64,000 nucleotides of DNA from Cymbidium sinense (lineage: Eukaryota; Streptophyta; Magnoliopsida; Asparagales; Orchidaceae), in assembly GCA_021442155.1 (NCBI GenBank), contig CM038214.1:22841808-22905807 (forward strand). The letters run 5' to 3'. Below are positions 2,831 to 45,200 of the stretch, piece by piece (positions within the stretch are counted from its first letter, which is position 1; each line of letters starts with the position of its first letter). A program made the translations under genes and the position numbers. A model generated the notes under the pieces. That model was not told the origin of the DNA, did not search any database, and saw nothing but the letters and a program-made list of their open reading frames with translations.

Positions 2831-3359
2831 AATAATCGTTCACACTGAATGTCATTTCATCATACGTACAAGATAGAATAGCATAGAAGTTTCTTTACAT
2901 CCCCGATAGGGTGCATGTAGATCATTTTCAAAGGAGATATAACATATATGTTGATATATGAAAGATCTCGATGAAAATGCATCTAACAAGAGTAAGATTC
3001 AAAACTTTTTCGATAACCGATGTACCAAAGCATGGTGCTTGAAATATGGGCAATGAAAGATATGAAGCATTTCATCATTTGAATCTCCCTTAGATTTTAA
3101 GGTCTCTATTGAGAATACATGCTTATTTTTCACTTGTTTGACTTTCCCATCTAAATCGTCAGAAGAGCTATCGTATAATACAATTTATCCATAATGTCTT
3201 CTGACTTGTGGGATGGCAGTGCTTGGCCTTGTCTTTGGGAAACCTTTTTTTCCCTTATTTTGAAGACAAGAAAATGGAAGGTGGAGGGACCTTCTTATAA
3301 TAAAAATAGGTAGGAAGAGCCATCGAATGGACTCGTTTGGTTGGGATGAAAGTACACAG
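2831..3359 (-). other. Decayed linker of the minus-strand Ty3/gypsy element
   Basis: This lies between the recognisable RT and retropepsin remnants on the minus strand, so it corresponds to the protease-RT linker. I see no conserved motif in it and no independent gene. Confidence 0.4.
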
Positions 3360-3800
3360 CATTATCATATACACTAATGTCTCAAATATTCTCCTCCACG
3401 AGTATATTTGAGACATTGGAGCAAAGTATATGGCACCATCTCATACTCATGAAGCCATGGTCATCCTAATAAAGCTCTAAAAGAGGTATTTGCATCAATC
3501 AAATGGACTTCGATTTTCAATTCACCTAATTTCAATGGAAGGGTAAGATAACCAAAATTTTTCTATCCTTTTTCATTAAAGCCATGATGCATCAATCTGT
3601 ATGAACATAATTTCTTTGTATCCAGTGATAAAATTTCTAAAGTACGAATTATTATGACGTTCATTGAAGATACAAGGTATACTAGGATTCTATTAAGAGT
3701 ATTACCATAGTCACATACAAAGATATATTATAATCTATAGTTTTTCATAAAAGATCGTCATCTATAAAGGAGATGGTAAAGAGATCCTCGATGGGAAGAC
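3360..3800 (-). pseudogene. Ty3/gypsy retropepsin (aspartic protease) remnant
   Basis: The minus-strand translation reads GYLTLPLKLGELKIEVHLID, then the family hallmark ALLGxPWLHEYEMVP with an in-frame stop inside LLGRPW, then LLQCLKYTRGG. This is the C-terminal half of a plant Ty3/gypsy retropepsin, the protease that would mature the Gag-Pol polyprotein. The N-terminal part with the catalytic Asp (about 3,700-3,800) is decayed beyond recognition. It sits upstream, in transcription order, of the RT remnant. Two more copies of the same domain occur at 35,520-35,938 (plus) and 37,200-37,830 (minus). Confidence 0.85.
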
Positions 3801-4267
3801 ACTATTTTCGTTAGAATAGGCTAGCCAAGCTAGTAGCAAGGACATGAGAAAGCTTGTGTGCCTGAGAGAAAGCAAGTTATGATTTTTTTAGTCTAATTTC
3901 TTCATTTAAAATATGACACTCATCTCTTTGTTATGCACCTCTCCTTTGAGTCTAGAGATTCGATAATTCTAAACTATAATAATTGTAGTAGAGAAATGCA
4001 TTTTATATAAAAGATCATGGGTGGATAAAAGTTTCAGATGGAAATGTGATTTCACTAAGTAAAATCATGTTTATGACTTTTTCCATGGGTGGATGAAAAG
4101 TTTCAAATGGTTCCAAATTCTAGATTTAGAATCTCACTTGTTTCTCTACTTGCCATGCTTAGTTATATACACTCATCAAGCTATTTCAAATGAACCTTGC
4201 CAATTAGCTTTGGAGATCGGGTTCTCACTCCCAGTACAAGTGGTAATTCTTCCTAGAAATCCCCTTC

Positions 4268-4800
4268 TCATTGTCTTGTCTTGCTCCCCAATGTTGTCCC
4301 TTTCGATCTCTTTCTCATTGCTTCCCTCAAAGCGGTTAAGATGCCTATTGAGTTTCTCAAGGAGAGGAGGTATATACTTAGCTTAGATGGCAACTTTCTT
4401 AGATGAGAAAGGACATTATAATCAACATTAGGCTGATCTTCAACAAGCATATCTAGGGGTGGAGCATCCTATGGAGGGGCTTCTTGATCCTTTGTACCAA
4501 TGACTTGTTTCCCTCTATCTTGAAGTGCTACTCTAGGAGATAGAACCTTGCCACTATGGAGGTTGACTTCGGTGATCTCTTGTTGCAGGGTAATGGAAGG
4601 TTCTACCTAGGCATTAGGCTCACCTACAGCTTCTCCTATGGGACTCTCAGAATCAGATGATTCCAAGTCTATCTCAAAAGGTGAACCCATAGTATTCAAA
4701 GTAGAAAAGTCTAATTCTGAATCAAAAAGATGAAGATTGGAATTTTTATAGTTATTTTGACTTGAAGAGTTATCATTAAGAATATAAGTAGACAATCGAC
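4268..4800 (-). pseudogene. Ty3/gypsy pre-protease (gag-pol linker) remnant
   Basis: The minus-strand frame 4,450-4,268 contains DYNVLSHLRKLPSKLSIY, which matches the YNVLAHLRRIPALLSVYDAL-type block that precedes the protease in this group of plant Ty3/gypsy polyproteins. A similar block (NYNVLAQLRKLPNRLSIYDA) is in the plus-strand element near 35,280. The acidic Ser/Asp-rich frame at 4,795-4,607 would be further toward gag. It belongs with the protease and RT remnants at 3.4-2.2 kb. Function of this linker is not known to me. Confidence 0.6.
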
Positions 4801-4999
4801 CTTTCTCTTTATGCTTCCAATTTGTCTATTTTCTTATTATATTTTCTTTTTTTCCAATTCTTTCTTTCCTATTTCTTCTTTATATTTTTCATACTACATT
4901 TACACTCCCATTCTATTACTTTGACTCTTACCATGTCCAATTTGGTATTCTTTGAACGAAGCTGATACATTTCTTTTATAAGTTAAACCATCAATTATT

Positions 5000-5641
5000 T
5001 GAATTGAGAATCTAGATCCCCAATAGGAATTATTATGCTTCATGCTCCAAATTATTGATGGTTCAATAAAGATAATATGGAATATCTATTTATTGGATTG
5101 GGCAAAATAGTGCAGACTCGATCGAAGGAGATAATGGGGAAATACCATAGACCAATCTGTCTTACAAGTCACACTATAAGCAAGGAGGTTAATTGCTTCA
5201 AATATACAACATGAATTTTGTTAATACATTGGAGTTGGGCCCTCATGTCTATCCAAATGAATCAATCTTTCCATGGGGTCCATCTTTGCCTACTAGGTAA
5301 GAGGATAGCAAGTTATAAATTCTATCTCTATCTTGGTAGACATGTATTTTATTAATATTCAATTCATAGATAAAAAATGAAGTAGTTAATGGTGGGCATT
5401 ATCCTTTTATTATATGTGTTCCTAAGAAAAGGGCATGGGAACACATCGACTTTGGAATGAAAATGGGAAAGAAAAGTAGCTCAGTTCCATCAAAATGATA
5501 GTAAGATTCTTGGCGCAAGAAGAATGGGTGATTCATGTCATCTTAACATGGTTCTACTTCCACTCTATTTTTTTAGAAATATCAAAAAGATTTCAATTAC
5601 ACATTAAAAAATGAAGACTCAGAATTGCATTTAGTGGAAAA
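5000..5641 (-). pseudogene. Plastid DNA: trnT-psbD intergenic spacer
   Basis: The stretch carries phrases I recognise from the plastid psbD upstream region, such as GTAAGAGGATAGCAAGTT near 5,300 and TCTTGGCGCAAGAAGAATGG near 5,510. Its orientation, reading from trnT leftward on the minus strand toward psbD, agrees with plastome order. It is a nuclear plastid insertion with small deletions and many transitions. No psbD coding sequence is visible at the left edge; the boundary near 5,000 is approximate. Confidence 0.6.
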
Positions 5642-5713
5642 AGCCCTTTATCAGATTTGAACTAATGACTTATGCCTTACCATGGGGTTACTCTACCACT
5701 GAGTTAAAAGAGC
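5642..5713 (-). pseudogene. trnT-GGU: Plastid tRNA-Thr(GGU), decayed copy
   Basis: The 72-base minus-strand sequence aligns without gaps to plastid tRNA-Thr(GGU). The D-arm (AACTCAGTGGTAGAGTA), anticodon loop ATGGTAA with anticodon GGT, and T-loop TTCAAAT are all in place. The acceptor stem still pairs with one G-T wobble. The T-stem has transitions but remains paired. The anticodon stem now has two mismatched pairs (C-A and C-C), so it is most likely nonfunctional. It lies inside a plastid-derived segment, with trnT-psbD spacer to the left and presumably trnE-trnT spacer to the right. Confidence 0.9.
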
Positions 5714-5929
5714 ATTTTGCTTTTTCAATTCATGAATTACACGTCTTCATCTTTCATTGTGATTCTATTGTATGTGCATATACAAATAATGGAACAATCA
5801 ATTTGATTTATATAGAAGTGGGTTAGATTCACATTTTGGTAAAAAAATGAAAATAAAAAATGCATTAAATTGTTTCAAAGTCAAACCTACTTGCTTTGTT
5901 GACTTTTCATATAGAAAAAAGATTCACTT

Positions 5930-5932
<3 letters not shown>
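5714..5932. other. Probable plastid trnE-trnT spacer, then unassigned
   Basis: By plastome order the sequence right of trnT should be the trnE-trnT spacer. Its AT-rich character fits, but I cannot identify a diagnostic motif. The plastid-derived segment probably ends before the TA microsatellite at 5,933. Confidence 0.4.

Positions 5933-5982
<50 letters not shown>
5933..5982. repeat. (TA)n microsatellite
   Basis: An uninterrupted run of about 25 TA units. It creates a spurious Tyr-Ile open frame on the plus strand. Confidence 0.98.
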
Positions 5983-5986
<4 letters not shown>

Positions 5987-6393
5987 GACATATATTCAAG
6001 ATCTTTTCTTGAATCATGTGATGGGGATTCGTAACCTAAACTGAATTCTTTTAAAAAGATGTTTCAATCCTTGTTTACTTAGTGTGAGATAGATAGGCAT
6101 AACTCATCGTAACGCAACGGAGCAATGAGTTCAAATTTAAGAAAAGAAATGAGAGTTTGACTCTTTTCTATTGGATTAATAACTCCTAAGTGATCTTATA
6201 CTTTGTTTTATTTTTTTGTTATATTTCATTATTGTACAAAATTATAATTCTACTTTATTTTCTTATTATTACACTTAATATTACCGATTATACTTAATAA
6301 TACATATTCTTTCATATATGAAATATACTTTCATATTACTAAATTAGTAACTCATATTAAATGTGAATATTAGTTATATCAAAATATGTAATA

Positions 6394-6396
<3 letters not shown>
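5983..6396. other. AT-rich sequence without recognised features
   Basis: The sequence lies between two TA microsatellites. Nothing gene-like is visible. Confidence 0.4.

Positions 6397-6464
<68 letters not shown>
6397..6464. repeat. (AT)n microsatellite
   Basis: An uninterrupted run of about 34 AT units, longer than the one at 5.93 kb. The near-perfect repetition implies recent slippage compared with the decayed surroundings. Confidence 0.98.
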
Positions 6465-6467
<3 letters not shown>

Positions 6468-6801
6468 AGGTAGTAGAATATTTATGAGTATGGGTAGCTC
6501 ATTCATGAACAAACCATCACTCATACTATCATCATAGTATGATGACAATCGTAGCATGCCCCCTCAGTGGTTTAGGACATCACCCTTTCAAAAGGCAATG
6601 GGAACTGACTTCTCCCGGTGGTAGTGGACTACAAAGGAAGTAGGTCATGGATTATCAATAAACCTAGAATTCATTCTTCTTTGTGCGAAGCTAATGGGGA
6701 CAAATTGTAAATTCATTGGTGAGATGTCTACACTGGTTCAAATCTAGGTCAGACCAAGAATTCGTCACTCCATGAATAAGATCTAAAATATTATCTAAAT
6801 G
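6465..6801. other. Unassigned sequence
   Basis: No motif recognised. If the flanking repeat is a 5' LTR of the minus-strand element, a primer-binding site would be expected near the right edge, but I do not see one. Confidence 0.35.
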
Positions 6802-7072
6802 ACTAGTCATTCGAGTGGAAATCCGCACCCCCTCACACTCCCCTTTCTGTAACAATGATTCATCATTACAAAGGTTGGTGAGACATTCCCGTCATGGACT
6901 TTGCAATGAAATAGTCAATGTTATGCTTGGTCATAAAGAGAAAGGTGGTGAAACCCAATAACTGGAGCAAGGTATCAAACAGGGTGAGATGTCAACATCA
7001 ATCTCACTTACTAAAGTCAAGTACTATTATGCATACACAAAGATGTCACGTGATATGGATCATCCACTTTAC
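6802..7072. repeat. Direct repeat, copy 2 of about 260 bp (LTR-like)
   Basis: Second copy of the block at 1,356-1,624, same orientation, differing by scattered substitutions and a few small indels. Both copies end at TCCACTTTAC. The divergence shows an old duplication. Confidence 0.75.
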
Positions 7073-10000
7073 ACATGAAATGAAGTCTAAATGGAATATA
7101 TACCAACATGACTTATAATTACAAATAGGATAAGACATGAAATAGTATATTGGTTAGATTACTAGACTCCTCTATCTAGACAAAAGGAATATAGAAATAG
7201 ATGTAAAGCATTGTAGATCTAAAAAAGTTAAGGTAGATAGGACATCATCATAGGGAATACTTATTAGTAAGGGCTATTGACTAGCTGGATTAGGGAGCTC
7301 CTTAGTGAGATAGATTTGTTGCTCTGACTATCCCATTTTTTCTATTGATAGGTTAGATTTTTGGTTGAATGTTAGAAACCATCTAATGGAGTCTTCCAAT
7401 GCCAACTAGTGCTTTTCTAGATCTTTTAGGCTTTTTTTTAGCCATGTCTCCTCTCTTGAGTGTACTAGTAAAAGTCAAATCCATAAGAAAATTAGTTTGA
7501 AAGTAGTCTTCTTTGAAATAGGAAAAGAAATTTGGAAGGAAAACATCTACGATCGAGTCATTCAAATCAAGTCGAAAGTCAAGCTTTTCATCACCAGTAG
7601 TAAAGACAAATGGGGATTCAATCATTGTCTTTTCTTAATCTAAGTCAATTTATGTTGAATGAAAATTATTCTTTATCACCTAAGAAACTAAACTTACTTC
7701 ATCCTCATCTCTTAAACTCAAAACTAAGCCACTAGAGATTGCAAGGTAAGATGTCGACCGGGAACACATCCCTTCTCACTATGCTATCTAATGCTTATGG
7801 TTCTTTCTTTCATCTAGCAAAATGGTAATGACATTAGAGTATGATGGCCTTCCAAGGGCTATCATGCCATAAAAAAAGCAATGTGAAATTGCTAGTCTAG
7901 AGAAACATTCATAGTTCATCTCCCACCCACCGCCTCGATTTCACTATTGCTAGGAGAGCGTCTCTAACATTCTAGAATATCCATTAGAGAAAGGGAGCTT
8001 TGGGGAATAGACTGTAGAAAAACCATAACACTTGGGAGAGGCTTACTAGTTTAAAAGAACATTTACAACCTAAGATGCACATCTATTTGGCTTGGATGGA
8101 GCTTTTACTTTCAAATGGCATGCACGATTGAGATGTCTCATAGGTAGGTCAAGGCCAAGCATTTCTCCTTTGAATACGTTTTATCAGAAAATAGCTCAAA
8201 CTTAGATTAGGGGACCTAATTAGGAGCTTCTTTCTTTTATAGATATGAAGATGCCTTGAATGAACCTAAGCAAGCCGAAATCTCAAACTCTAAGTATGAA
8301 GTGGACATCTATGATTTCATTGGAAACATCTCTTTCTATTTAACTAGTTTTGTAGCAGAGTGAGTACCTTCAATAAGATAGATTGACTCTTTTTTATTCT
8401 AGTTGGGATAGCTGAGTGGAGTGAACCCCTTTTGCTGTAGCTTCTCATTTTTCAAAAGTCATAGACTGAGATGACCTCTCACCACTAAATTACCTGTATA
8501 GAATGGAAAAGAAGGCTTGAAATCTCATAGGCCCTTGCGCTTTAGTTTGTAGAAATCTTTCTCCCTCTTGCAACTTTGATTGAGTACATGACCCTAAAAT
8601 AGATCAAAGAATTCACTCTCTTCTTGCCTTTGACTCTTCAAGCAAGACCATGGTTGTTATCCTGATAATCAATTTTACTTTAGGGTTTCTTGAGATTCTT
8701 TAGCCTCTTTCATGTGCCAATTTGAAGTCGTTCACACCTAAATCAATCGGAAAGGTATAGTAAGTGCAAGACGACTTATTCTTCTTTATTGGGCTCTTTC
8801 GATTCCTATACAAGTAAGGGTCACTTATCTGTCAACTTTTTCACTAAATCAAGGTTATTTCTATCTTGGTGGCCTATCATATTGAGAATTATATTCTTTC
8901 TTCTTCACTCAGAGTTCTACCTTGATTATGATAAAAAGCATCTCTCAATTCAAGATACCATCTCTTACTTCACCATAGCCTTGGGTTTAGAATTAGTTAA
9001 CATGTCCTCTTTCTAATGCCTATACCTACTTTGCTTAGGCCTAAAAGTAGCCTTTGGCTGACTGCTCTTAAGAAAAAGATTCCTGGGTCAAGATTGCTAC
9101 TCAGAGATAGCCAAGTCTATAGTCCCTATTGAATAACATTAGATGACATATAAAAGAAAGTCATAATATTGTTACATTTCCTTAGGTTTCAACCCAAAAC
9201 TCTTTTTACTCTTCTAGTCTACCTACGTCATTCTTTGCTTTTGAAAGAGAACTTCACCACATTCAAAACTATTGTGGATTCAATCAAGAACTACAATTAC
9301 ACCTTATCAAGTAGTAGATTTGCTAACAACTCTAGAGTTTGACTATTACCTACTTGATTGACTGAATGGAATAACTCCTCCTATTTACAAAAGGCTCAAG
9401 GGCCCTAGCTACAGACAAGAAAGACACAATGTGCTTCATCTACAATCAGCATAAGAAAAATGAGATTCGGTACACATTGATCAATAAAACCTTCCTAAAA
9501 ATAAATCAATTTACGCACTGCCTGCTATAAGGTCTGGCACTGATAGTTGATCAGCTAAATCTATTTCAATCTCTTTTTTTATCACCCTTCTCATTCCCAA
9601 CTTAGGTGGGAATATTTCTTCTTCTACTAGAGCATTCCTTTTGATGAAGAAGGAGAATTTTTGGGTTGTTCGGTGTGATGTTGGATTGAGTGGAAATACT
9701 TAAGCTACTTTTGTGCTTAATGACGAGATGGACATCGATAGGAGACTTAAAATAGGCCATCTTTCTTTCAAATAGATCTTGCAAATATTATTCCACAAGG
9801 ATTTAGCACTTCATTTGATATTTGGTGTAAGAGAAGATTCTAAAATAAAGACACTTACTTTTAGAGGTTACTTTCTTTCTAGTATAGCATGTATTTTTTT
9901 TCATCCAAAGAACATCATAAGAATAAGAAAACTTTCATAAGACAAGGCAAGCACAAACTCTTATAATGCCCACTAAAAAAGAAAAATGTCGGATCAAGAT

Positions 10001-13000
10001 CTATGATAATGATGCATATAGGTGCTATATTTTCCATTTCTATTTTCTAAATAATGAGTCGATAACCCAAGAGAGCAATGATGAAAAGGTCAAAACCTCA
10101 AATCTACTCTTGGAAAATGGGTTTATGTTCTAGTAAAAGTCAAGTCTGATACTTTTGCTTCCTAAACCTTTTCATGCCTAAATTGCTTTGCTAGATTGAA
10201 ATAAAAGTTAAGGCCTTAGATTAAGGAAAGAGTTGCATTCGATATGGATATGGAGGAGTCTCTACACTCTACGAGTGCAGATCAATAAGAAATCCAAAGT
10301 TTTTTGGGATATGGTAACCAAACTGGCATCAACTTCTCAAGCTAATCACAGAAACCTGATGCGATGCTCAAACTTGATGTTTTCTTTCATTCCTAAACAA
10401 GCTACCCTCGATTTATGTATCACAGCTAGCTCATACCATGGAACCGCCTACAAAATTCCCTCAGTGTCAAGCTAGATTTAATATTCCATGGCTAACTAAA
10501 CTAGGACAATTTGAAATATGAGGCTTTGAGATTTACTTTTGGGGAGAAGATGGGATCTTCTCGACCATAAGATAAGGTGTTAGGATGAGGTTCACATAGC
10601 TAGCCCTGATGCTAACCTCTGGTATTTGTTCTCTCTAGAAATGCATGGCATGTCCTAAACTCTTTTTATTAGAAGTCTAGTCTTTTAGAAAGCACATCAC
10701 TGCTTCTTTCTCATAGGTCATAAGTCTATGAAAATAAAAAATCTATTGGAAAGTTGCATCCCCACTCTTTCTCTTTCCAAAGCATAGGCTGCCTTAATAG
10801 AATAGAATGACTGATCCTCATCCTCCTCTTCTAGGACATGCTCATTCAGATTTCATGCTATTTATTGTACTTATCATACATAATTTTGAGTAGAATGGAT
10901 TCCATCTTGGATCCCTCCCTATTTCTTTAAAAAGTGAAGGTGCTTGTCCGAATGAGTCAAGCTTCTCTTCTTGAAGAAAATTTCATCTCCTATCCCATGA
11001 CTAAGTAAAAGAAGTGATTGAACAACTTACTTGATGAGATCAGTGCCTCTTCTTGAAAAGAAAGAAAAGGTTCTATCTAGAAAGGGACGTCCATTAGGGC
11101 TAGGGACATCGGGTCTTCTCTTTTGAAAAGAAGGTATATTTATTCTCATTTAAAATAGCAATAATAGTAAACCAAAAATTGATTGCATTCACTTGAAAAG
11201 GCTCTCTTCCATAGCGGATGGGTATTGTTATTACATTCAACAAAAATAAAGAAAAGAAAGAGAGCATCGAATCTTGCATAAATGTACACATCTGATTTAT
11301 TCACATCTTGAAGCTTAGTGCCCTTTGTGAAATTATACACTCTTCCTGGAGGGTGAGAAGTATTATTTTGGTCTATTGAGGTACCTAAAATGGATCATGA
11401 TCATATAATCATGACTCAACAAAGGATTGATTGAACAAGCCAATCAGCATATATATTGTTAGAACTGTTGGCAAAGTGTCAGTAGTAGCTTAAAGGTCGA
11501 ATGAAAGCAAATGCATCTTTTGAGTAGGTAAAATTGATCGATTTGACGGTGACTAAGGACTTCATCACCAAGGTCTAAAGGGATTACAACAAACACTCAC
11601 ACCTTGCAACTACTCTATAACTTCACCCCAATTCTCCCCACTTCTAGCCATGTATTCATCATATCCCACTCTTTATAAGCTAGCCGAGGCCTAAGGTACC
11701 TGCATATAGCAAAGGATCATCATAACTAGAGGTCACGCACCTCATGATCAGAACTGACTTCCGAGCTTGGGTTGCTACAGTGTCAAAAGTGCACTAACAC
11801 TAGTTAGGTATGCCACACGCTCAGATGATTACTCACTTTTGAGATGTCTACATCCTTTGCCTCATAAACAGGGTGAATGTAGGTCTTAGGAGTAGACAAC
11901 CAAAACCAAGTTGAATCATAATTTTGGAATCATAGGGGAAATATATGAAAAGCATTCAAGCAGACCTGGTCAATAACTCGACATAGTTCTACTTACAATG
12001 CTCCCTAGGGGTGTAATCTAGTATATGTATGGTATGGTTTTTAGAGAGACTTTTGGTCCCTTACCATACTCATATTCTCTTTAGAAAGAGCAAAGATACC
12101 AACATAGCAATCCTATGACTGCACCTTTAAAGACTTTTCTAAGGAGGAAGAAATGTGATATACCTCAAAAACAGATGTCTCAATTTGCACTTTGTGGAGT
12201 GGACTCCTCCCGAGTGCCGCATGAGGCTATGACTTACATGTTTGATATATCTTGCCCAATAAAAGGGCTCCATAACATATAAAGATGCCTCTCAGAAAGA
12301 CACACAAGGTACCCCCAGTCAGGTTTTCAGTCACTAGAAAGGGAGAATCTTGGCATTAGAAAGATTCACATCTCCCCTCAATTGAAGTTATAACACTACT
12401 TAGATCCACTTAGTTATAGAAATCTCCTAAATGAGAGCTACAGAGGTTATGTGTTGCTCTTAAGAATAATCAATTGGGAAGACGTTAGTACTAGTGCTTT
12501 TGATAAAAGGGATGCAATTGGATCTTCACCTGCCTCTACTTTTGATAAAAGGTCGACCAATTTTGGATATAGAGAAAGTGACTCTGAAATTGGTGAAAGT
12601 TGCTACTGAACGGCCTAGCTTCCCTCTCGCTTCTTATGATGGGTGATCAACAGCCTATGCCTCTAAAGGTGTTATCTAGGCTTCTATGGGGAGAGTTATC
12701 TTCTAAAATGGAATTATCTAACCTACTTTTCTAGCTACCAACTTAGCCTTTTTTATGCTATTTGTATCTATGTTGCTTCTGCTGGTAATGCAGGATCTAC
12801 TAAAGGCTTTGTAATTCATGGTTCTGGTGGATCGCATCAGTAGGTTGTGTCTATGAAATGGTGGCTCACTTATTTTTTATTAGGAGGATCTCTTTTTAGA
12901 GTCCTAACATTGAATCTACTTCTACGGAATCCACTGCTAAGAATCAAATTGCCTTCTTTCTCATCCTGCATAGTCAACACCGAATATGAACATAATTAGG

Positions 13001-21560: not shown

Positions 21561-24500
21561 CCCATAGCTTAGTGAGTGTGGCTGAAAAACAAAAAGAAGA
21601 AGAAAAAGAAAAATTGGGAACTAGCCACCCATCTAGTGAAGGATCAATAGTTTTGTCCATGGTCATTTAAAGGATTTTATGTTCTTTGCTATGCATCGTT
21701 TCCCTTATGTTTGCTAAGTGTAGGTTCGTTCATCAATACCAGCTTGCCTAGGAAAGTTGGTTTTGAGTCGACCTTCGCCATTTTCTATCTTTCTTGTGGG
21801 GGGCTTGGCAGTTTTGTTCGGACTTCATGTGTGGGGCGATTTGGTCTCCTCTTTGCCTGGGGTCCTCCTTGAAAACATTATATGATGTGTATTTTGCTAT
21901 TGGGATGAAAATAATTGCCTCAACATTAAAGGTTGTATATTTTGTAGGCTATCTGGAATTATGCCCATTGCCTCAATAATATGATTCACTTTTGCATACA
22001 CACCCTCTCAAAAAGGATGCATCAACCCAGCATGCACTACATGTCTAATTTTAGAAAGAAAGTTTTACATTTTTTCTTTTTATTGTAGCTCCTCTACATT
22101 CATTCCTTAAAGAAAGTGATCGATTATCCTATTATTCCTAAGAAAAAGATTTGAAAAAACCTTTTAGTGTTCACCAAAGTTTGAGTCCTTGGCCAGTGCA
22201 TCTCTTCCGAGCAGACTCATTTACATGATCAAAGTCCCTATGAGGTTGCTATCTGATATCCCTTCTTGATCACCTCTCACTCACCCTAATCTGAAGATTG
22301 GAATCACACATCTAACCCCTGGAGAGGCTTCATTTAGGAACTCCTTTTTGGTCCGGTGGGTGCTTGAGATCCTTTTTCATCAAGTCCATCTCTCCTACCA
22401 ACGGTTCCTTGTGGCTCCTCACTTATGCCTTTGACAACCCCATCCATCACCTCAGTGAATTCCAGTGTTCATTTTTTTTCTACTTGAAGTTGATCAAACT
22501 AGTACATACTTTCCACTTTCTAAAAGTTTCAATGATTTGATGTACTATAACACCTTGGCATATGTAAACCAGTCTATAAGGAAGGTGGTTTTCAATCAAG
22601 AATCATGCTTGATCCAGACTTGAAGGAGATCGTACATTCTTCTACCTACGTAATTTGATGAATCAATAAAAAAGCGTTAGTGATCATGAATATCTAACCT
22701 TTTTGGCTTTCTACTTTTAGAGAAGTTGCTAGTGATGACCTCTTCTTATTCCAAGTCCTGACTCATCCGAAGAATGCTATCACCTTCTCTTCGAAAAACA
22801 TAATGTGACTTATTTGGGTGAGGGGGGCTACGATAGGACCGAACGGATGATAGAAAATTGAAGGAATTAGAGGTGTCACTCTCCCAAGAGCACAGCATGG
22901 CATGCACGAAGACAAGGCTTGTGCATCAGGGATGAGATCATAGGGAACTATGTTTATTCTTTGGTTTAGTTCTTCTATTTGAAAAGAAACAATAAAAAAG
23001 TTCAAAACTTCCTAGTTGCACCTTTCTTTCTTCTTGCATTTGCCCAATCAAACTCCTAAATTGGTGAATGCAGAAGTTCCATCGCTATTTTTCTATGCAA
23101 CCTTGATCTCGAGCTTCCATTAGGATCACTTTCATCTAACTTTCCTTCGACCTTTGTGGCTGTTAGTGAAGTGGAAACTAAATTCATAGTAAAATTCTAT
23201 ATCGATTTCAGATAGATCAAGCTTCAGACTAGGAGTTGCCATTGGTGGGATAGATCTCGTTCACTCTTGAGTTGAAATGTATGCTCGATTGTAGCCATCT
23301 TGCTCTGTGGATTGTTAGCCAGTAACTTTTTCTTTGCTATTCACCTTGACTCTCTTATAGAATGGAAGCCTCAAGCCTATTTCTTTCGAGACATGATTGA
23401 AGAAAAGGCTAATGTCCTAACTCTTACAGACCTAATCCTAATACAGTAGCTATGCTATCCATTCTTACCTTAAATGCAATGAAGTTAGCAAACAACTTTC
23501 AAAATCGACTTGAAGATAGGCATTGGATAAGTTCCTAAGGCCCTAGAGTGACCATAAGTATCCAAGAGAGGAGTCACTTTCATTTTGAATGAGAAACCAT
23601 TGGTTGAAAGCTAGAAATAATAAGGATGATCAGATTCATCTTTTATCACAGAACATATTGACTCACCTTAGAAATTTTTCTAAAACAAAATTGGAAGAAA
23701 AGAGATCTTATATGAAATGATCATTGTATAGTGAATAGACCATATTTTCACTAAGAAGGTGATAATTTGATTTTTACAAAAGTGGTTTGTGTTAGACATT
23801 GTTTGGAAGTAATACCTGTTGATTCAAAGCTAAAATCATTTTCGAAGGGTAAAAGCCTTCCATTTGTGCATAAAGATATGGATGCCATTATCGATAAATA
23901 TGTAGTAGTAAAGAGCTTGTATATCCGGTAAAGCATGAAGGAGCAAGGTGAGAATGCAATGGATAGCTTGCTATGGTATAATCCCAAACAAAGGTATTGT
24001 TATTGCCTCGATTCAGTTGATTTGGATGCCTTTTTGAAGGTCAAACCCCCATTTCCTATTTTTTTTATTTCTATTGCTTTTTTTATATTCATATGTGAAT
24101 GCATGAATGAGAGGTTGATGTGCTTGACCCCCGAGGACATGCATTTTATTTTAGTCCAACCCTAGTTAGAATGAACAACAAAGTGAAACATTCAAGAGTC
24201 CCATTGTAGCTACTTACTCACACTTTTGTATGACCATAGACTACTTGACTATAAGTAGAGTTTAAGAGGTATAATGTTCTCACCCAAAAGGTATTTTGGA
24301 GTGAAGTGTGAGAACCGGGACCGAGTAGAGGTGAATAATGAAATCGTGGTTTTAAATGAGAATCCATATATATAAGCCCTTAATGAATAACATCCAAAGC
24401 ATACTTCATTTCATTCCAGTATTTATTGCATTGCTTCTAGCTCAACACTCAACGTCAATGACCATCTTAGAGTAATCTTTCTTAGAAAAAGAGAGAAGCA

Positions 24501-35989: not shown

Positions 35990-37195
35990 GTTTGGTATGA
36001 TATTAAAACCTAAAAATAAAATAAATAAAGAAACTAAACCTAAATAAAATAAAGAAAATAAAATAAAATAAAAAACCTAAACTAAAACTTAAACCTAAAC
36101 CTGAACCTAATTGTAAAAATAAAATATAATAAAAAATAAAAACTAAACTAAAATAAAATAAATAAAAACCTAAACTAAACAAAAAAATAAAATAAACCTA
36201 AAAATAAAAAAATTTAAATAAAAAAGTAAATGTAAAATAAAACTAAAATAAATGTAAAATAAAATAAAATAAAATAAAATAAAAACTAAATAAAAACCTA
36301 AACCTAAAAAAATAAACTTAAAATAAATTAAAAATAAAACCTGAACCATAAAGTAAAAAAAATAAATGTGAAATAAACAAAATAAAATATACCTAAACCT
36401 AAACTAAATTAAACTAAACTAAAATAAATAAAACCTAAACCTAATCATGAAATAATCTTAACCTAAACCTTAAACTAAATAAAATAAAAATAAACTAAAA
36501 ATAAACCTAAACCTAAACCTAAAAAAATATAATTCAAACCTAAACCTAAACCCTAAAAATAAAAGATAAAACATAAACCTAAACCTAAAAAAAACTAAAA
36601 TAAAAAACCTAAAATAAATAAACTAAACTAAATAAAAAATAAATAAACCTAAATAAAAATAAAAAATAACATAAACTATAAAAAATAAATCTGATGCTTA
36701 TGGAACTATCTTTATAGTAGAGATGGTTCTAGTTATCTAGGGTTTTTGATTTGCACTATGCGTGCTCATTTTTTATTTATGTCATTGCTTGTGTCTTATA
36801 AAACTTGGTATGATACTTGGTTGATGAAATTGAAAAGAAGAAATGTTGAATCATAACACGTTCTCTATTAAAAAAAACAAAAACCCTAAGCCCCGAACTA
36901 AAACTGGAACCGTAGACCTAAAACCTAAAGATTAAACCCTAAACTCTAAACCCTAAAAATCCTAAATCCTAAACCTTAAACCTTAAACCCTAAACCCTAA
37001 AACCCTAAACCCTAAACCGTAAACCCCAAACCCTAAACCCTAAACATTAAACCCTTAACTAACCCTAACTCTAAAACCTTAAAATGCTAAAAACCTAAAC
37101 CTAAACTAAATAAATCCTATAATTAAATAAATAAATAAACATAAACCAAAATAAAATAAAATAAAATAAATAAAAAAACCTAACTAACTAAGTCT
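35990..37195 (+). repeat. Degenerate telomere-like array (CCTAAA/CCCTAAA and TAAAA)
   Basis: From 35,990 to about 36,690 the strand is made of AACCTAAA, ATAAAA and similar words. An unrelated 180-base piece follows (36,690-36,870), and then another array whose core at 36,981-37,052 is nearly perfect CCCTAAA, the C-strand unit of most plant telomeres. The array is flanked on both sides by Ty3/gypsy protease fragments that point toward it. It could be an interstitial telomeric tract added during break repair, or a microsatellite that grew inside a retroelement. Confidence 0.85.
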
Positions 37196-37830
37196 TTTAG
37201 GGAGAGTTGGCATTACCTTCTTTCTCTCTTTATTTTTCCACCATTCTTTTCTCAGATTATTTTGTAGTCTTTGAAGTATGTCGTAATATAAGTCTTAGGT
37301 TCTACCGGCTTGGGATTCTTTAGGATGAAAGACTTTACATCTTCCTATATCTTTGCTTCATGTATAGCAAATGGTTGTATATCACCAATGATTCAAAACT
37401 CTTCTCCATCCTCAAGTCTTTTATGCATTGGTGCATGCATTGACCATCCCAAACTCGAAGCCATGGTCGATTGAGAAGAGTTCTAAATGAAGTATATCGA
37501 TTACATAAAATTTGGCTTCTCTATGGAGGTTCCCAAACATGAGTGGTAGGACAAAGGATCCTATTATCTTCTATCTTTTTCATTGAACCCATGCACCATT
37601 AGCTTATCTTGCCCAAGATGTTGAACGTCAAGGGATAGCCTCCTTATTTCTTTCACAAACTCATGAGATTAATATAAGAGCATGGATCAATCATAATTTA
37701 ATGAATCGTAAAACTGTCATTCTCTACAATAACTTATAAAGGGTGATTATGACATGACATGAGATCTTTTTTATAGAAAGTGATAGCTAAAAGGTCTTGA
37801 GCTTGTATGACTTCTATCATAAATCACTCA
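37196..37830 (-). pseudogene. Ty3/gypsy retropepsin remnant, inverted copy
   Basis: Minus-strand reading gives IMIDPCSYINLMSL near 37,690 (the protease active-site region, with Asp still present), then MVRLLGRPW-like traces near 37,480, HQCIKDLRMEKSFE near 37,410, and after one frame change GDIQPFAIHEAKI near 37,380. The last part is close to GVEFNIKRDIQSFSIHEIEL of the plus-strand copy at 35.8 kb, so both come from the same family. Nothing upstream of the protease remains: the sequence that should be the linker is replaced by the fungal-like cox2. Confidence 0.8.
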
Positions 37831-37849
37831 ACAAAGTATGTAGTGAAAG

Positions 37850-38237
37850 TAGCAAGACACCAATGGTACTGCTCATACAAAGACTCAAATATTCTTAATG
37901 AAGTTGGAGAATCAATGGAATTTGATTTGGTTCTCAAAAGACTAGAACATAGAAAACATTACTATATATTGATAATCGAGTAGTAGTGCCAATCGATACA
38001 CACATCCAATTTCTTATTACAGGTGCTGATGTTATTCATGACTTTCTTGTTCCTTCACTAGGACTCCAAATTGATGTCATGCATGGATGGCTTAACCAAA
38101 TATCAATTCTAATTAAATGAGGAGTGTTCTATGGATAATGTTCAAAAATTTGTGGAGTATACCATGAATTTATGCCAATTGCAGTTGAAATTGTAACTCT
38201 AGAGAAAGGCTTTGCATGGATTGATAGCCAAGCATAG
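37850..38237 (+). pseudogene. cox2: Fungal-type mitochondrial cox2 (cytochrome c oxidase subunit 2), C-terminal part
   Basis: COX2 carries the CuA centre that accepts electrons from cytochrome c. The fragment starts at HQWYWSY (37,855), continues with LNEVGESMEFD, NRVVVPIDTHIQFLITGADV, then IHDF and VPSLGLQID, a decayed PGRLNQ, GVFYG.CS.ICGVYHEFMPI (CuA ligand loop) and VTLEKGFAWIDSQA before a stop at 38,235. ITGADVIHDF, IDTHI and LEK..AWIDSQ are the fungal forms; plant COX2 has [20 protein letters not shown] there. The transmembrane N-terminus is missing, one gap falls before NRVVV, and stops arise from C-to-T changes (CAA to TAA). A related nad1 follows 170 bases downstream. Confidence 0.88.
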
Positions 38238-38404
38238 TTCTTTCCCCTTTCCTTTCTTTTTCTATTGATTTATACCTGTATTTTAATTAGAATTAGAAAA
38301 TCTAAATTGTTTTTTCTTTTCTAAGATTAGACTTAGAAGAATGTGTAATTACATATGCAATTCTACTGATATTTTGAATAGAAAACCAATGCATTCAGTT
38401 CGAT

Positions 38405-38960
38405 AGAATATATTATATATTATAGTAGTTCTTGTACCAATTATACTCAGTGTTTTTTTTATAATAATAATTGAATGAAAGGTAATGGGATCAATGAAAT
38501 GATGAATTGCACCTAATGTAGTTTTTTCTTATGCTCTAATAGAACCATTTGCAGATGCTCTCAAGCTAGTAAAAATTCTTCCATCATAAGATACAAAGAT
38601 TCTATGCTTCCTAACACATATGGTTACTGTAGTTTTTAGTCTACCAGGGTGGGGTGTAATTCTTCTAGGACAAGGTCTAGCACTAAGTGATTTCTCACTA
38701 AGAATTCTATATTCACTAACTATCAAGTATTGGAGTATATGGTATTCTATTTGTCGGAATGTCTAATTCTAAATATGCATTCCTTGGATCACTACGATCT
38801 ACTGGTCAAATGATTAGTTCATAACTAATATATAGTGAAGTAGTTCTAGCAGTAATCCTACTATGTAGTTACTTTCAACATTACTGAAATTATTGAAGGA
38901 CAACAAAGTGTTTGGTATATTATTCAACTACTAATTTTTTCTTCTCTCATTTTATAGTCT
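38405..38960 (+). pseudogene. nad1: Fungal-type mitochondrial nad1 (NADH dehydrogenase subunit 1), N-terminal part
   Basis: NAD1 is a membrane subunit of respiratory complex I at the quinone site. The sequence reads VLVPIILSVFFIIIIE.KVM, then [88 protein letters not shown] and QQSVWYII. Plant NAD1 differs at these points ([38 protein letters not shown]), while the fungal protein has ADALKL, PFGQGLALSDFS and EIIEGQQSVWY. About the first 190 residues of some 330 are covered; the AETNRAPFD region is absent. Several single-base frameshifts and stops show long neutral decay. No spliced-intron scars as in plant nad1 are evident. Confidence 0.88.
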
Positions 38961-40380
38961 TTATCTTTCTTTTATATAGGTAGCTATATAAGCTAGATCA
39001 AAAAGCTAGTATTGTTTCATGGTAGATTCATGTATTGAAATTTTCTACAATTCAAAGAGCGCAACAAAAACTTTATCCACATGGATACAATAATTAGTGC
39101 TGATAAGAAATTTGAGAATTATCAAATTCCATTAAGAAGAATAAGTAGAGTGATACAAAAAGAACTTTGTTCTTTGTTAGTCCTATCTATAAGGGGAGAG
39201 CATATGGAAAAGAAAACTGACTCTTTTGTTTCTATTGGGAACAGGCCATCCACTGGGAGTTTTGAGTTTCATACTGCCAATAAATCCAAGAAATATTAGC
39301 ATAGTGCTGGGTGTATTGATTTTTTTTTGAAAGGGAGTTTGTACAAGTTATTTATTGAAAGAATAGGTTGGATTTCACTGACTTCTTTTTATTTATGTTT
39401 TTTTCTAGTAGTGCTCATATAGGTCAGGTTTTGCTCATACATGACAAATGGCAATAGTGTATGTGAATGGTTTTGAATTAATATTGAATTGAAGTAGATG
39501 GTGATTCTAATAGGATATGGAAAGAAAAAAAAAACTTTTCTATGAATCAAATTCTAGAATGAATGATGAAATCATTAAATTTAGATTCCAATATTTTTCT
39601 GGGTTGTGTGTCAATGAGTTAGTTGATGGAGGTGGTAGGGTTTCAGATTGTAAAATAGAGGTTTGCATGAAAACTCTACATTGATACCACTGTTGGATCA
39701 TGTGATAGTCAGGGTGTATCCCTATTTTCTTTCCTAGAAGTCGAGAACCAAGGTTCAGAAACCAGACAAGAGTAGGAAGTCATTGGGAGCCCTCAGGGAA
39801 AAAGTATCAATCTATTCTCTAGCTCTTCTTTCTTCTTTATAGAAAATAGACAACAATGGAGATTTTGGTCTCAACCTGTCTAGTTAACAGCTACTGATTC
39901 CTCGCATAAAATTGGTATATTAATTGCATTCTAAAGAGAGAATGCCAGAAAGACAAATCACACTTTTCTTTCCCTACCACCACCACTACTCCTATGGAAA
40001 ACAAGGTGCGGAGCATTAAACCTGTAGAACAAGTGAAAGACAATAGTCTTTTTCTTTAGCTAACTACTTCTTTAGAAAAGAATTCCTCAAGACAAATGGT
40101 TAGCTCACCAGTCAAGCAAATTCATCTTCTTTATCTATTAGTAGAAATTCATATCCTTACCAAATCGGTTTGGTAAAGAACTCATTGATCCTTCGATAGC
40201 TAGCACATTACTATCTTTCATTGTTCTTTTTGAGTTGAGGCATGGATCATTTTCTTTCTTGAGGTACTTGTTTGGCAAAGACTCAATTACTTTGATCCTT
40301 GGAAAATAAAGGCAATCCTACTTGTTCATGACTGAGCTTACAATTGATGAGTCACTGAGCTCAACCTTAAAAGGGCTAAG
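38961..40380. other. Unassigned between fungal-like nad1 and plastid rpl2
   Basis: I recognise no gene here. A 72-codon frame at 39,081-39,299 has no motif that I know. The segment could hold more fungal mitochondrial intergenic DNA or plant mitochondrial DNA. The left end of the rpl2 intron similarity may extend somewhat into it. Confidence 0.35.
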
Positions 40381-41090
40381 GAGTGAAGGAAGAGTCTTCC
40401 ATGTGACTCATAATATGTAGAAGTATCGATGTAATTTCATAGAGTCATTTGGTCTAAATGCTACATGAAGAACATAAGCCAGATGATGGAATAGCGACAC
40501 CTAAGATGTAGAAGATCATAACATGAGTGACTCTACAGATTTGGATTTCTCTATATCCACTCATGTGGTACTGAATCATACAATTCATATAAGATCCATC
40601 TATCTATATATCATCATATACATCTAGAAAATTGTATGCTTTGGAGAATCTTGTACAGTTTAGGAAGGGATTTTGATTGAGAAAAAAGTGAACCTATATG
40701 TCCTTAGGCATGGCCATACATAACATAGAAATCACACTTGGAAAGGGTGGATAATTAGCTAAAGCAGCAGGCAATAGAACTGATTGCAAAATAGGTTAAG
40801 TCGGCCACATTTAGATTACCATTTGGGGAGGTCCATCTGATATCCAAAAAATGCTTAGTAATTGTCGAACAAGTGGGTATATTATTGGGGTGAACCAAAA
40901 AAGTTTGGGTAAAATTGGATCTAAGTGTTGGTTAGGTAAGCCTCTTGTAGTCAAAGGAGTAGTTATGAACCCTATAGACCATCTCCATGGGGGTGGTGAG
41001 GGGAAAGCCCCAACTAGTAGATAAAAACCCACGACAAGGTTATCTAATGCTTGGAAGAAGTAGGAAAAGGTGTGAACCTATTTCTATCAT
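40381..41090 (+). pseudogene. rpl2: Plastid rpl2 (ribosomal protein uL2): intron and exon 2
   Basis: Plastid uL2 is part of the peptidyl-transferase region of the 50S ribosome. Bases up to 40,692 match the group II intron (AATTTCATAGAGTCATTTGG, GAAGAACATAAGCCAGATGA and TATCATCATATACATCTAGA are diagnostic phrases). Exon 2 starts about 40,695 with MSLGMAIHNIEITLGKGG (normally DMPLGTAIHN...) and continues LAKAAG, a gapped middle, then [20 protein letters not shown] and [19 protein letters not shown] (normally NPVDHPHGGGEGRAP). The last part (RKKPTTPWGYPALGRR) is decayed by stops. Changes such as R to K, P to L and V to I are C-to-T/G-to-A transitions typical of methylated nuclear copies. Confidence 0.93.
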
Positions 41091-41378
41091 AGATCGTATG
41101 GTCAGTCACTTTAGAATTCACACCTACTCTCACGAAAGTGAGACAAGCGAGTAACGATAAGAAATCTCGTTGTTAGTCATTCTACTAAGTCTTCATGTAA
41201 AAAGAATTATCTTAAGAGTATTTAGACTTCAGAGTCTTTACCTTACAGTTAGAGTATAGGTATATTTCTTTTCACTTTAGAGTATACTAAGACATTGACA
41301 ATTATAGTCAATGTATATGTATATTAGTAAAGAAATGGAAGTTTGACCTATTAATATCTATGGCCTCAGGCCATCAAG
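41091..41378. other. Junction sequence between rpl2 and ndhF fragments
   Basis: The sequence has a CTCTCACGAAAGTGAGA hairpin at about 41,127 but no recognised gene. rpl2 and ndhF lie in different parts of a normal plastome, so the breakpoint that joined two plastid pieces is somewhere here. Confidence 0.4.
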
Positions 41379-42243
41379 AATGAATTTTTTTCTTAGAGTT
41401 CGGACACTTGATTGATCCACTGACTTCTATTATGTCAATAATAATTACAACTATTGGAATCATGGTTTTTTTTTCTAGTGACAATTCTATGTCTCACGAC
41501 CAATTGAGATTTCTTTAATCTTTTCCAATGCTTCAATGTTGGGATTAGTTACTAGTTCCAATTTGATACAACTTTTTTTTGAGAACAAGTGGGAATTTGG
41601 TCATCTTTGGTTCACATGACCCATTGCAGCAGGTGCTTGTCAAAAAGTTTTTGTAACTCAGAGTCTATTTGGTTTTGGTTTCTTATTAAGAACCTTAGGA
41701 TTTGATTAGATAACTGGTAGTTTCAAATTTTGTTCTTGATCCAAGGTCAAATATTTCTTTTAATGTGCCTATTTTTTTCTTTGTTAGTGTAGTTGTTAAA
41801 TCTGCACAATTCCCCCTTCACGTATGGTTACCTGATGCCATGAAAGGCCCCACTCCTCTTTTAGCTCTTATACACGCTACTACTATGGTACCAACAGGAA
41901 TTTGTCTTGTAGCTCGACTTCTTCCTCTTTTCATAGTTATACCTGATATAATGAATCTCACTTGTTTAGTTGGCCTAAGTACAATACTTTTAGGAGCTAC
42001 TTTAGCTCTTACCAAATTTAAAGAAGTTTAGCTTATTCTACAATGTCTCAATTAGGTTAGATTATGTTAGCTCTAGGTCGGTTCTTATCGAGCTACTTTC
42101 TTTCATTTGATCACCCATGCCAATTCTAAAGCTTTCTTATTTTTGGGATCTAGATCCATTCATCATTCAATTGAGCTTATTGTTTGATATTCACCAGAGA
42201 AAACTCAAAGTATTATTCTTATGGGAGGTTTAACAAAATATGT
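41379..42243 (+). pseudogene. ndhF: Plastid ndhF (NDH complex subunit 5) internal fragment
   Basis: NdhF is a proton-pumping membrane subunit of the thylakoid NADH dehydrogenase-like complex. The fragment covers about the second quarter of the protein: [49 protein letters not shown], then an open stretch 41,765-42,031 with [51 protein letters not shown] and [11 protein letters not shown]. It ends with [28 protein letters not shown] and ILMGGLTKYV. Frameshifts, stops and multi-residue deletions (for example in the RDLFQIFNNLIYN region) show decay. Both ends of the gene are missing. Confidence 0.93.
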
Positions 42244-45200
42244 ATACAACATTCTTGCCACAGAGTCAAGAAAGTTAAGTTTTGACTAATCTTCTTAATC
42301 CAATGCAGTTCTTTTAGTAAAGTGCTGATCCAATAGAGAAAGCAGGCAAGGAGGAAAGATATGCCCCTTGTTTGGAACCTAAAAGGAGCATTCTTCATCT
42401 TGTTGAACTCTTTCTTTATACTTGACCTCTTCTGTCTAGCTAAAAAACTCAATGATGGTAAAAAATAGTGTGCCCTTCATCTTAATTGAATCATTTACCT
42501 ATATTTTCAAAGAAAGGAAGACGAGGTGGTCTAACTACTAGACTAGCTAGCCGATTTGGCATTTAGCTTCTTCTTGATGTTTCGTTCTGAAATCGATAGA
42601 CACCATATTTTCCCTCTTGGAAAGATGTGTAGGAAAATTAGATTCTAGCGGGTTGTTCCCTTTCTCAAGAGCTACTCAATGCTTCCCTCCCTCTTTCTCT
42701 TTCCATCTGCTTGGTTGATTGGATTGATTATCCATGGGCTTTTTCTTGATTTGAAGGTTTAGATAAGTTGGTGACATATTGAATCAACTTTTGATTCCAT
42801 ATGGAACCTAAAACCAATGAAGCATGATTCAACCATAGAAAGTCAAAAAAAATGAAAAATTGTACATATATGAGTTATCACTAGCAGAGAAAGACTGTAT
42901 AGAAGCAGAAAAAGCTCAATTAGACCATTAAGGCAGTTGAACCAAGACGGGAAAAGAGAGCTAGTGTTTTAGTGGAATAAACCTGAAGCGGTGAGCCTGG
43001 GTCCATTTGTTCTCATTTATTGTTGGATTGAAAGTAGGTTAGAAGGTTTTGTTAGTTCATCTTTGCATTTAGATCTGATCCAGTAGCCTAGAATACCCGT
43101 AATTGACCTGGAGGGCCTAGAAATGCAAATGATTCAAGAAGTCTGCTCGATCTGCACCTAGATCATATATGGAGATTGAATCCCTTTTCTTCTTTTAGAA
43201 TCAAACTGATGCCTTTTCTTTTTGAAAAAGAAATGCATTTCTCCTTTTTTTGTTCTTTGAGACTGTACGGTATGTAGCATGGAGTAGGAGAGTGGGAAAG
43301 GAAAATGACATAGTTGCCCTGACATTCTTTTCCAATTACCTTCAAGTCATGGTGATCCACTATGACCATCATCATTGCTAGTACGGGAAACATTGCGTTG
43401 CATGCATTTGGAAGAGGAAGAAGATTGACATGCTATATCTATATATCTTCTTCGATTCTTCTACTTTGATAATACTTTAGTTCTTGCTTAAGGAGCTCTA
43501 ACTTAAGCAATACATAGACCTCTAAAGAATAAGTCCCAGTGCATGAACACGAGGCACCATCCTCACCAGATCGTCATACTGAAACCCAAATTTGAATATT
43601 CACGATCCTTGCAGTTGAATTCATCCCCATACCTGAATCGTGCCATGGTGGTTCTCTTCTACATAGGCTCCTCCACTTCTGGAATTTAGAAATGAAACCT
43701 TTCCAAACTTAATCAGAAGAACTGATCTCTTTCTATAAGAAAAAAAGATTAGAGTTTTTAGAACGAGAATCATCTATTTTCTCATTTCTTGATCTTGGTA
43801 AGAAGACACTCAGATGCACCCACTACACACCACACTCAGATGACTAGTGTGGTTCTTCCCCCAACCATGTATCTAGGGTTGACCACATCATCACCATTTT
43901 CTCAAAGTGTGGCCATGGTCTCAATATTTGCACTGTGAAGTATGTCTAAGCTTGACAATAAGTGGAGATTTTGAGTCCCTCAAAATGAAACCCCCTTCTA
44001 GAGTAAAAAGAATTTGTGGCCCACTCACCCCAGCATGAGTGGCTAAGGGGAGAAGTGATGGTGGTTTCATGAATTCTTTTTCATAGTTAGTGGAAATTTT
44101 TTCTTTTTTTGCAGCGAAGGTTAAGATACCCAGGGAGCGGTATATTTTTTGTTTTCTTCATAAGGTTTCATTCGTTCTTCCTGCGCTCATTTCAAACTTC
44201 TTTGTATCGCCCAACAAGGCATGATGAAAAAAATGGATCCAATACCAAGACACCAGAGAGAGAACGCTAGGCTTCCTTATCTTAGATATGCTCTTTCTCT
44301 CAGAAGCAAAGCACCAAAAGCTAGAAGAAAGAGAGAGGGCTGGACGATGATGCAGATAAAGAGAGAGAAAAAGCAACATAAGCAAAGTTTTGAGTCTAAT
44401 AGTCAATTTTGAGGGATCAATTTTGAAGTAAGTGAAAGAACTATTTGCATAGATATATAGAAAGCATTTTCTCTTCAAAGTCAAAGGGAGGGTGATCTTC
44501 AAGTTTTGAGATTGATTTTGATGTCGAACAAGTTACCTACTTAAATAATATACCAAGCTATCCTTAGCTTCTTGACATGCAATATGCACTTTTTGCACTA
44601 TAGATCGAGGAGGATTCGGACATCAATATCCCCATAGAAGTGTAATTTTTTCCCATCGTAAGATGCAATACAAGACTTTCTCTATGAAATTAGTTTCATA
44701 CCCAATGAAAGAAGTTCTCAATAGAAGTTCAAGGTGCTATTCTTAGGCAAAGAGGTCAGATAGCAATAATCACATGGAAAAAGAAAGATTCCACTTGCGA
44801 AGGAAGGTCTCTCTATGCTATGGCTCTCCCATGGGGGATCTTGATGATGCTTTATCCTTTTAGTTTGATTCCCAATTCATTGGAAATGCCTACTCAAATT
44901 ATGTGTAGTTGGTACACTTAGTTCTGTATCTATTGAGTCACAGAAGGATAATAGCAACAAGGTAAAGTCAAGTGTTCAACTTAGGTGCTAAATAGTAGTA
45001 TGGAGAAATTCAACTTACCAGCATGAATTGATTAGTCATCTGTCCAACCTATCTCGGATACAAGTTTGTTCCTCTTGGTTATTACTCCAAACCAAAGAAA
45101 CTTGCATCTATAAGGTTAGCTAAAGATATGGCTTCATGGAAATCATCTATGGAATGTACCGGAGAAGGGTTTCTTCCAGCTTCTCATTTGCATAAAGGCA

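Follow-up and report, generated by a model that had tools for sequence, protein, structure and literature searches.

A fungal-type mitochondrial segment on an orchid chromosome

The window analysed here, a stretch of 64,000 nucleotides from Cymbidium sinense, corresponds to C1:22841808-22905807, where C1 is a 377-Mb contig in a 3.53-Gb assembly of 2174 contigs. Twenty contigs (C1-C20, 73 to 377 Mb) are of chromosome size, and C21-C23 are smaller than 0.2 Mb. Positions 37842..39034 of the window (+ strand) are homologous by blastn (88%) to positions 4006-5216 of another contig, C992. A first-pass annotation of the same DNA, made from the letters alone, had put a fungal-type segment at 37850-38960; the place was right, and the borders set by DNA comparison with C992 are slightly wider.

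The segment contains the 3' part of a cox2 pseudogene (37842..38237, +), unbroken at the HQWY motif, and the 5' part of a nad1 pseudogene (38407..38934, +), frame-shifted and stopped, both identified by reading, tblastn and PDB matches. Next to them lie the first 30 bp of a tRNA-Gly gene (39005..39034, +), cut by the right junction and recognised from the C992 trnG at 5187-5258 (ARAGORN) and the junction letters. When 12 pieces of C992 were searched against the 64-kb window with tblastn (E 0.01), cox2 matched at 37828-38234 and nad1 at 38407-38884, both on the + strand and both interrupted by stops and frame shifts; the other pieces had no match.

To the left, the segment is joined to a repetitive element (37195..37841, +) recognised by repeat matches across the assembly. 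To the right is a flank found across the family described below (39035..41325, +; 68 matches listed, from the best 40 of 322 candidates scored), and farther on a plastid ndhF fragment (41714..42028, +; Pfam Proton_antipo_M, 72.8 bits), which scored 113.8 bits against chloroplast NdhF and 70.4 bits against the best plant mitochondrial ND5.

A longer, less changed tract on a separate contig

C992 is 102.5 kb long, with bases 1-80,000 and 92,501-102,500 examined here. Its first 69.8 kb comprise 2.9 tandem units of about 24.2 kb that are 98.7-98.8% alike, each with a fungal-type cluster of about 6.4 kb at 0.4-6.8 kb. Within this tract of about 6 kb, Pfam recognised COX1 (three pieces, with a LAGLIDADG_1 frame in cox1), ATP6 (ATP-synt_A, two frames), COX2, NAD1 (NADHdh) and NAD3 (Oxidored_q4), and ARAGORN recognised trnG. 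The best PDB chain for nad3 scored 61.8 bits and the second-best, a bacterial one, 59.6 bits. Reading by eye suggested two further genes, nad2 and nad4; for nad4 there was no Pfam hit, and tblastn gave 41-44% matches in two fungal-like mitogenomes that carry no annotation. The frame that we take to be nad2 had no useful PDB or Pfam match. Several genes of the cluster are frame-shifted too. The fungal cox2 frame, 168 codons long, is free of stops in all three copies. A group I intron match reached 30.5 bits, below the gathering score of 50. In the first unit, standard ARAGORN found Ser and Gly tRNAs and Rfam found one tRNA at 3468-3546 that is neither of those two; neither program found a tRNA-Met there. 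A Gln(ctg) tRNA on the opposite strand inside nad1 appeared in the metazoan mitochondrial mode of ARAGORN only and was not credited.

Beyond the fungal cluster, the unit carries remnants of RuBisCO large subunit, Ycf4 and CemA, a piece of ribosomal S2 and an integrase zinc-binding piece. There is a 5-kb run of N on the scaffold (L034 2490-7490), which may be a scaffold gap, and past it come an ndhF-type piece and a nad1 exon of plant type. Between the first two units there are 128 substitutions and 101 gaps, unevenly spread: 1-7 kb, which takes in most of the fungal tract, has 3 substitutions, and other parts have up to 16 per kb. Mis-polishing with nuclear or plastid reads might account for this.

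The tract matches a transfer that is already known. An insert of about 8 kb from an Ustilaginomycete mitochondrion is common to an epidendroid orchid clade, with an acquisition date of 28 to 43 million years before present, according to PMC11827590; the same paper lists pseudogenes of atp6, atp8, cox1, cox2, nad1 and nad4 for the insert of Corallorhiza maculata, and describes up to eight fungal tRNA genes, among which tRNA-Gln and tRNA-Met are expressed and charged. PMC9966765 cites the insert as longer than 8 kb with 14 genes. The first-pass annotation had noted that fungal mitochondrial DNA has been reported in orchid mitochondria, and these papers bear this out. Like the published insert as described there, C992 has fungal atp6, cox1, cox2 and nad1 (by Pfam) and probably nad4 (by reading and tblastn), broken and in one organelle-like tract; unlike it, C992 has nad3 (by Pfam) and perhaps nad2, neither of which is in the Corallorhiza maculata list. 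The 1.2-kb piece in the window very probably belongs to this insert.

We infer that C992 is itself mitochondrial, given its organelle-like features: the stop-free cox2, the plastid remnants, the plant-type nad1 exon and a near-zero branch in a DNA tree of 17 rows (C992 and 16 nuclear copies, rooted on C992), in which the C992 branch measures 0.003 and those of the nuclear copies, from the same node, 0.067-0.114. Only if C992 is organellar would it, at 88% identity to the window and on so short a branch, represent the less changed organelle copy of a nuclear insert. Because its tandem units differ and include an integrase remnant, C992 could instead be a young nuclear array, and the fungal DNA could have passed directly from fungus to nucleus with no plant mitochondrion involved. 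We regard this as very improbable. The tandem arrangement, the 128 substitutions between the first two units and the integrase remnant are in its favour, but the fungal tract shares one unit with plastid DNA, a plant-type nad1 exon lies on the same scaffold across the gap, all 16 sampled nuclear copies have long branches where C992 has almost none, and of the six fungal protein genes given for the Corallorhiza maculata mitogenome, five were seen or read on C992. A nuclear copy on C10 spans the end of the C992 unit unbroken (23716-24300 adjoining 3-2690), so a head-to-tail or circular arrangement predates that transfer.

The segment is of fungal rather than plant type

Read through its interruptions, the COX2 of the window scored 123 bits (E 9e-35) against 6hu9 and 112 bits against plant COX2 7jro, and its NAD1 scored 107.5 bits (E 7e-30) against fungal ND1 7zm7 and 87 bits against the best plant ND1. 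For both predicted translations, these scores are far above chance. We take the three PDB entries to be yeast COX2 (6hu9), Vigna COX2 (7jro) and Chaetomium ND1 (7zm7). PDB scores and tblastn thus bear out the first-pass reading of two disabled fragments, cox2 and nad1, that are fungal in type and lie on the same strand; the residues that it quoted are present in the window, and in printed alignments plant proteins differ at those points (TSADVLHSW in COX2 and a ten-residue stretch in ND1). The motif ADVIHDFA(V/I)P is not diagnostic alone, because a DNA pattern for it, searched in GTDB contigs, matched three bacterial contigs only (match frames unchecked).

Comparison with the native gene points the same way. 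The native cox2, on contig C1935, is split at HQWY, the exon 1 frame running to HQWYRS near 15.83 kb and exon 2 starting near 17.08 kb, whereas the cox2 of the window is uninterrupted at the place where the native gene carries its intron. The cox2 of C992 and of the window terminates with AWIDSQA and a stop, and the native gene continues.

The trees of both genes that the first-pass annotation had proposed as a check gave a mixed result. With nad1 alone, a grouping of the query with plants was rejected (p 0.00015); with cox2 alone it was not (p 0.25 and 0.36), and grouping with fungi in the single-gene trees had weak support (61/88, 63/49 and 54/46). Since the cox2 tree alone was undecided, we built a tree from concatenated cox1, cox2 and nad1, which placed C992 with fungi (100/98) and rejected its placement with plants (p 0.00012). 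A sister relation between the query and the native cox2 was rejected as well (p 0.00027), although this is weak evidence because the constraint also breaks the pairing of the native gene with Vigna.

These trees used a thin fungal reference set with no named basidiomycete. The named fungal references are presumably all ascomycetes. Fungal mitogenome references were sought in IMG/VR, GTDB contigs and plasmid records, which yielded one fungal-like nad1 piece (IMG/VR) and two fungal-looking records filed as bacterial plasmids. The former is a fungal-type nad1 stretch in IMGVR_UViG_3300023063_000046, a viral contig of 43.9 kb that, given this stretch, is probably fungal mitochondrial DNA. The latter, NZ_CP110133.1 (a Peribacillus plasmid record) and NZ_CP053901.1 (a Proteus mirabilis plasmid record), carry mitochondrial genes and look like fungal mitogenomes. 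A third record, NZ_CP087955.1 (a Wolbachia plasmid record), also carries mitochondrial genes and looks like an insect mitogenome.

Might the segment be a plain nuclear copy of plant cox2 and nad1 whose fungal look arose by chance? In addition to the undecided cox2 trees, Vigna is a better match for the parent-tract cox1 (378 bits, 170/207 identical) than the sampled fungi are (budding yeasts 334-340 bits, one with 157/207 identical; 147/192 identical to L037, NZ_CP053901.1), with identities of 0.82 to Vigna and 0.76-0.77 to yeasts. For C992 cox2 the identity with fungi is 0.63-0.66, with Vigna 0.63 and with the native gene 0.58; for C992 nad1 it is 0.53-0.64 with fungi and 0.54 with Vigna. Against these points, however, the native cox2 is 85% like Vigna and only 53-58% like C992, plant cox2 is split where the window copy is intact, and both the nad1 and the three-gene tests reject a plant placement. 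A chance resemblance therefore seems to us scarcely credible.

A nuclear family with two shared ends

The window copy proved to be one of many. With the window segment as query, 43 rows were obtained, corresponding to 40 loci after three split ones were joined (40 of 49 candidates scored). Three of these loci are on C992 and at least 37, whole or partial and including the window, are elsewhere. C1 holds 21 of the 37, with 12 of the 21 between 21.4 and 26.3 Mb. With the 7-kb C992 tract as query, 51 rows were listed (40 of 184 candidates scored), and 20 of the 51, 14 of them on C1, share both ends (C992 4005-4010 and 5210-5216). A copy at 22.59 Mb on C1 and another on C8, beyond those 51 rows, also have both ends. 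All copy numbers are lower bounds, as 40 candidates were scored out of 49, 184, 322 and 2521 in the respective searches.

Other nuclear pieces are longer or different. They include pieces at 56.62 Mb on C10 (C992 positions 3-6227) and at 58.36 Mb (753-7000) and 58.84 Mb (3063-6739) on C11, and others on C1191, C17, C5 (25 Mb) and C13, all with 86-93% identity. The differing extents of these rows suggest that several pieces entered the nucleus and that one founded the family.

In the 17-row tree, the long C10 copy branches first (0.067) and the other 15 copies form one group (100/97). Within that group the copy at 58.93 Mb on C11 branches first, followed by a C16-C3-C10 group and a C1-C5-C6-C8 group. 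Both ends are present in 12 of these 15 copies; L011 and L029 lack the left end and L031 lacks the right. The copy at 58.93 Mb is less than 100 kb from other fungal pieces at 58.84-58.88 Mb, and for this reason the C11 cluster of nuclear mitochondrial inserts (NUMTs) is the likely birthplace of the family.

The first-pass annotation had envisaged a single nuclear relic and had named misassembly as a concern. The relic is chromosomal and decayed, as proposed, but it is not single, and a one-locus misassembly can be discarded because both window junctions recur at 20 or more places in the assembly. A broader artefact, in which DNA of a contaminating fungus was joined to plant DNA, has in its favour that everything rests on one assembly. 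Contamination would nevertheless have had to produce identical junctions at 20 places or more, together with graded divergence and shared decay in 16 nuclear copies, and a contaminating fungus would not bring the plastid DNA found on C992. This explanation strikes us as extremely improbable.

Flanking DNA and mode of amplification

The left flank (37195-37841) gave 2521 first-look candidates, and the best 40, which were scored, all matched. Thirteen of these 40 are not beside any listed fungal-segment locus. Three such copies were examined. Two (L065 and L066) end at 37840 and continue into other sequence, which is 90% alike between them over 527 bp and unlike the right flank of the window; the third (L064) includes 17-18 bp of the fungal piece and could be a cut-down family member.

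On the right, the break falls inside trnG. The stretch 39438-41070 also occurs at 46.96 and 47.06 Mb on C2, at 138.59 and 138.80 Mb on C7 and at 32.9 Mb on C9, away from listed fungal loci, and 40394-41273 lies within a wider dispersed repeat. Some cox2 rows away from fungal places, which may be of native type, lie near the right-flank matches on C2 and at 138.59 Mb on C7. DNA downstream of the C11 copy is homologous to 41769-42804 of the window (85%). Neither the left flank nor the right flank at 39035-43000 matched mitochondrial-like DNA (C992 pieces and C1935:7700-17700) at E 1e-3, and a mitochondrial origin of the right flank would therefore follow from its neighbours only. Short matches of 51 bp and 45 bp lie near 43.2 kb. 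Copies on C1 have up to 10 kb of flank in common, and long stretches are shared with the C5, C6 and C8 copies.

One explanation for this arrangement is that a transposable element captured the fungal fragment, the family then being a mobile element with foreign mitochondrial cargo. The repetitive left flank, which occurs without the fungal piece and continues differently in two of the three copies examined, is compatible with such an element, as is the presence of the same two ends at 20 or more places on several contigs. There was, however, no inverted repeat pair of at least 40 nt in 30-50 kb of the window; the self-comparison of the window gave two repeat pairs longer than 150 bp, neither of which flanks the fungal piece; and no transposon domain was hit by any of six open frames taken from the window, L026 and L028. 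Nor were terminal repeats, a target-site duplication or transposition genes seen in the parts searched, and the ends of the unit lie beyond those parts. With 21 of 37 loci on C1, 12 of them at 21.4-26.3 Mb, and flanks shared over up to 10 kb, the family has the look of segment duplication. A cargo-bearing transposon is thus an unlikely account. Clustering on C1 and long shared flanks lead us to favour copying by duplication of chromosome segments over transposition. Slightly easier to entertain, though still doubtful, is a wider formulation in which a nuclear mobile or recombining repeat took up the mitochondrion-borne fungal piece and multiplied across chromosomes, which would have created a small interspersed family of DNA from another kingdom.

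Decay and age of the nuclear copies

Relative to C992, the window shows C>T or G>A 52 times and T>C or A>G 13 times, and changes of the former kind are the more numerous in all 16 nuclear rows. Changes in the window fall at codon positions 1, 2 and 3 in the numbers 39, 27 and 21, and in none of the 16 nuclear rows is the third position the most changed. At fungal-segment places outside C992, all 36 cox2 rows have at least one stop, which in some is only a TGA. The window copy is thus mitochondrial sequence on a nuclear chromosome with disabled frames and relaxed constraint, and appears to mutate like unselected, probably methylated nuclear DNA. Nothing in its sequence suggests that it yields a product. 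It resembles other NUMTs in being chromosomal, disabled and more diverged than the organelle-like copy, and differs from them in that the copied DNA was itself foreign and that one piece has become a family with the same ends.

Between the root of the tree and the window copy there are about 0.10 changes per site. At a nuclear rate of 2 to 7 changes per site per billion years, this corresponds to roughly 14 to 50 million years, which is compatible with, and says no more about, the published 28-43 million years.

Origin of the family and relation to known transfers

The following history accounts for these observations. A fungal mitochondrial tract with cox1, atp6, cox2, nad1, trnG, nad3 and probably nad2 and nad4 would have entered the mitogenome of an orchid ancestor, where it would still be present, as on C992, little changed though with broken genes. 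Mitochondrial DNA bearing the tract would then have reached nuclear chromosomes on several occasions. A 1.2-kb piece with breaks in cox2 and in trnG would have been joined to a repetitive element on the left and to DNA containing ndhF on the right. Duplication of this composite, for the most part inside chromosome 1, would have produced the copies at 20 or more places that keep both ends, the one in the window among them. We consider this account as a whole highly likely. The route that the first-pass annotation had sketched, from fungus to plant mitochondrion to nucleus, gains support from the C992 tract, the decayed chromosomal copies and the three-gene tree that rejects a plant placement.

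Given the match between the C992 tract and the epidendroid insert, the transfer itself is not new. The insert was reportedly first described by Sinn and Barrett in 2020 and by Valencia-D et al. in 2023. What we did not find in the literature searched (titles and the starts of abstracts) are nuclear copies of it, which either of those two studies may report. In Cymbidium ensifolium, mitochondrial fragments occur on all 20 nuclear chromosomes, and a 270-bp fungal region is the sole fungal DNA mentioned in the portions of that paper covered here (PMC11003039). The part that appears new, within the literature searched, is the decayed, amplified nuclear family with shared ends and a repetitive element attached at the left; in being nuclear, decayed and amplified, the window copy differs from the published insert. 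Host repeats and segmental duplications can carry organelle DNA, and here too passenger organelle DNA has multiplied along with its flanks.

If this history is correct, the orchid nucleus would hold a second archive of the published fungus-to-orchid mitochondrial transfer. Its decaying copies could date the event independently of slowly evolving mitochondrial DNA, and would record which parts of the insert were present at each departure. The family would also illustrate a route from foreign organelle DNA to a dispersed nuclear repeat, and would mean that cox2 or nad1 of fungal appearance in an orchid nuclear assembly is not necessarily contamination.

Other features of the window

The window contains further DNA of organelle type. 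About 25 kb to the left of the fungal piece, positions 8849-12450 match C1935:7700-11587 (80-83%), on the contig with the native mitochondrial cox2, and form a separate NUMT. A tRNA-Thr(GGU) at 5642-5713 on the - strand scored 47 bits in Rfam; we take GGU to be a plastid-type anticodon, and this tRNA possibly comes from a plastid insert. Directly before the left flank, 36000-37190 is an AT-rich degenerate repeat (GC 20% over 36001-37000) with many AAACCCT- and AAACCTA-like motifs, and it resembles a decayed plant telomere-type repeat.
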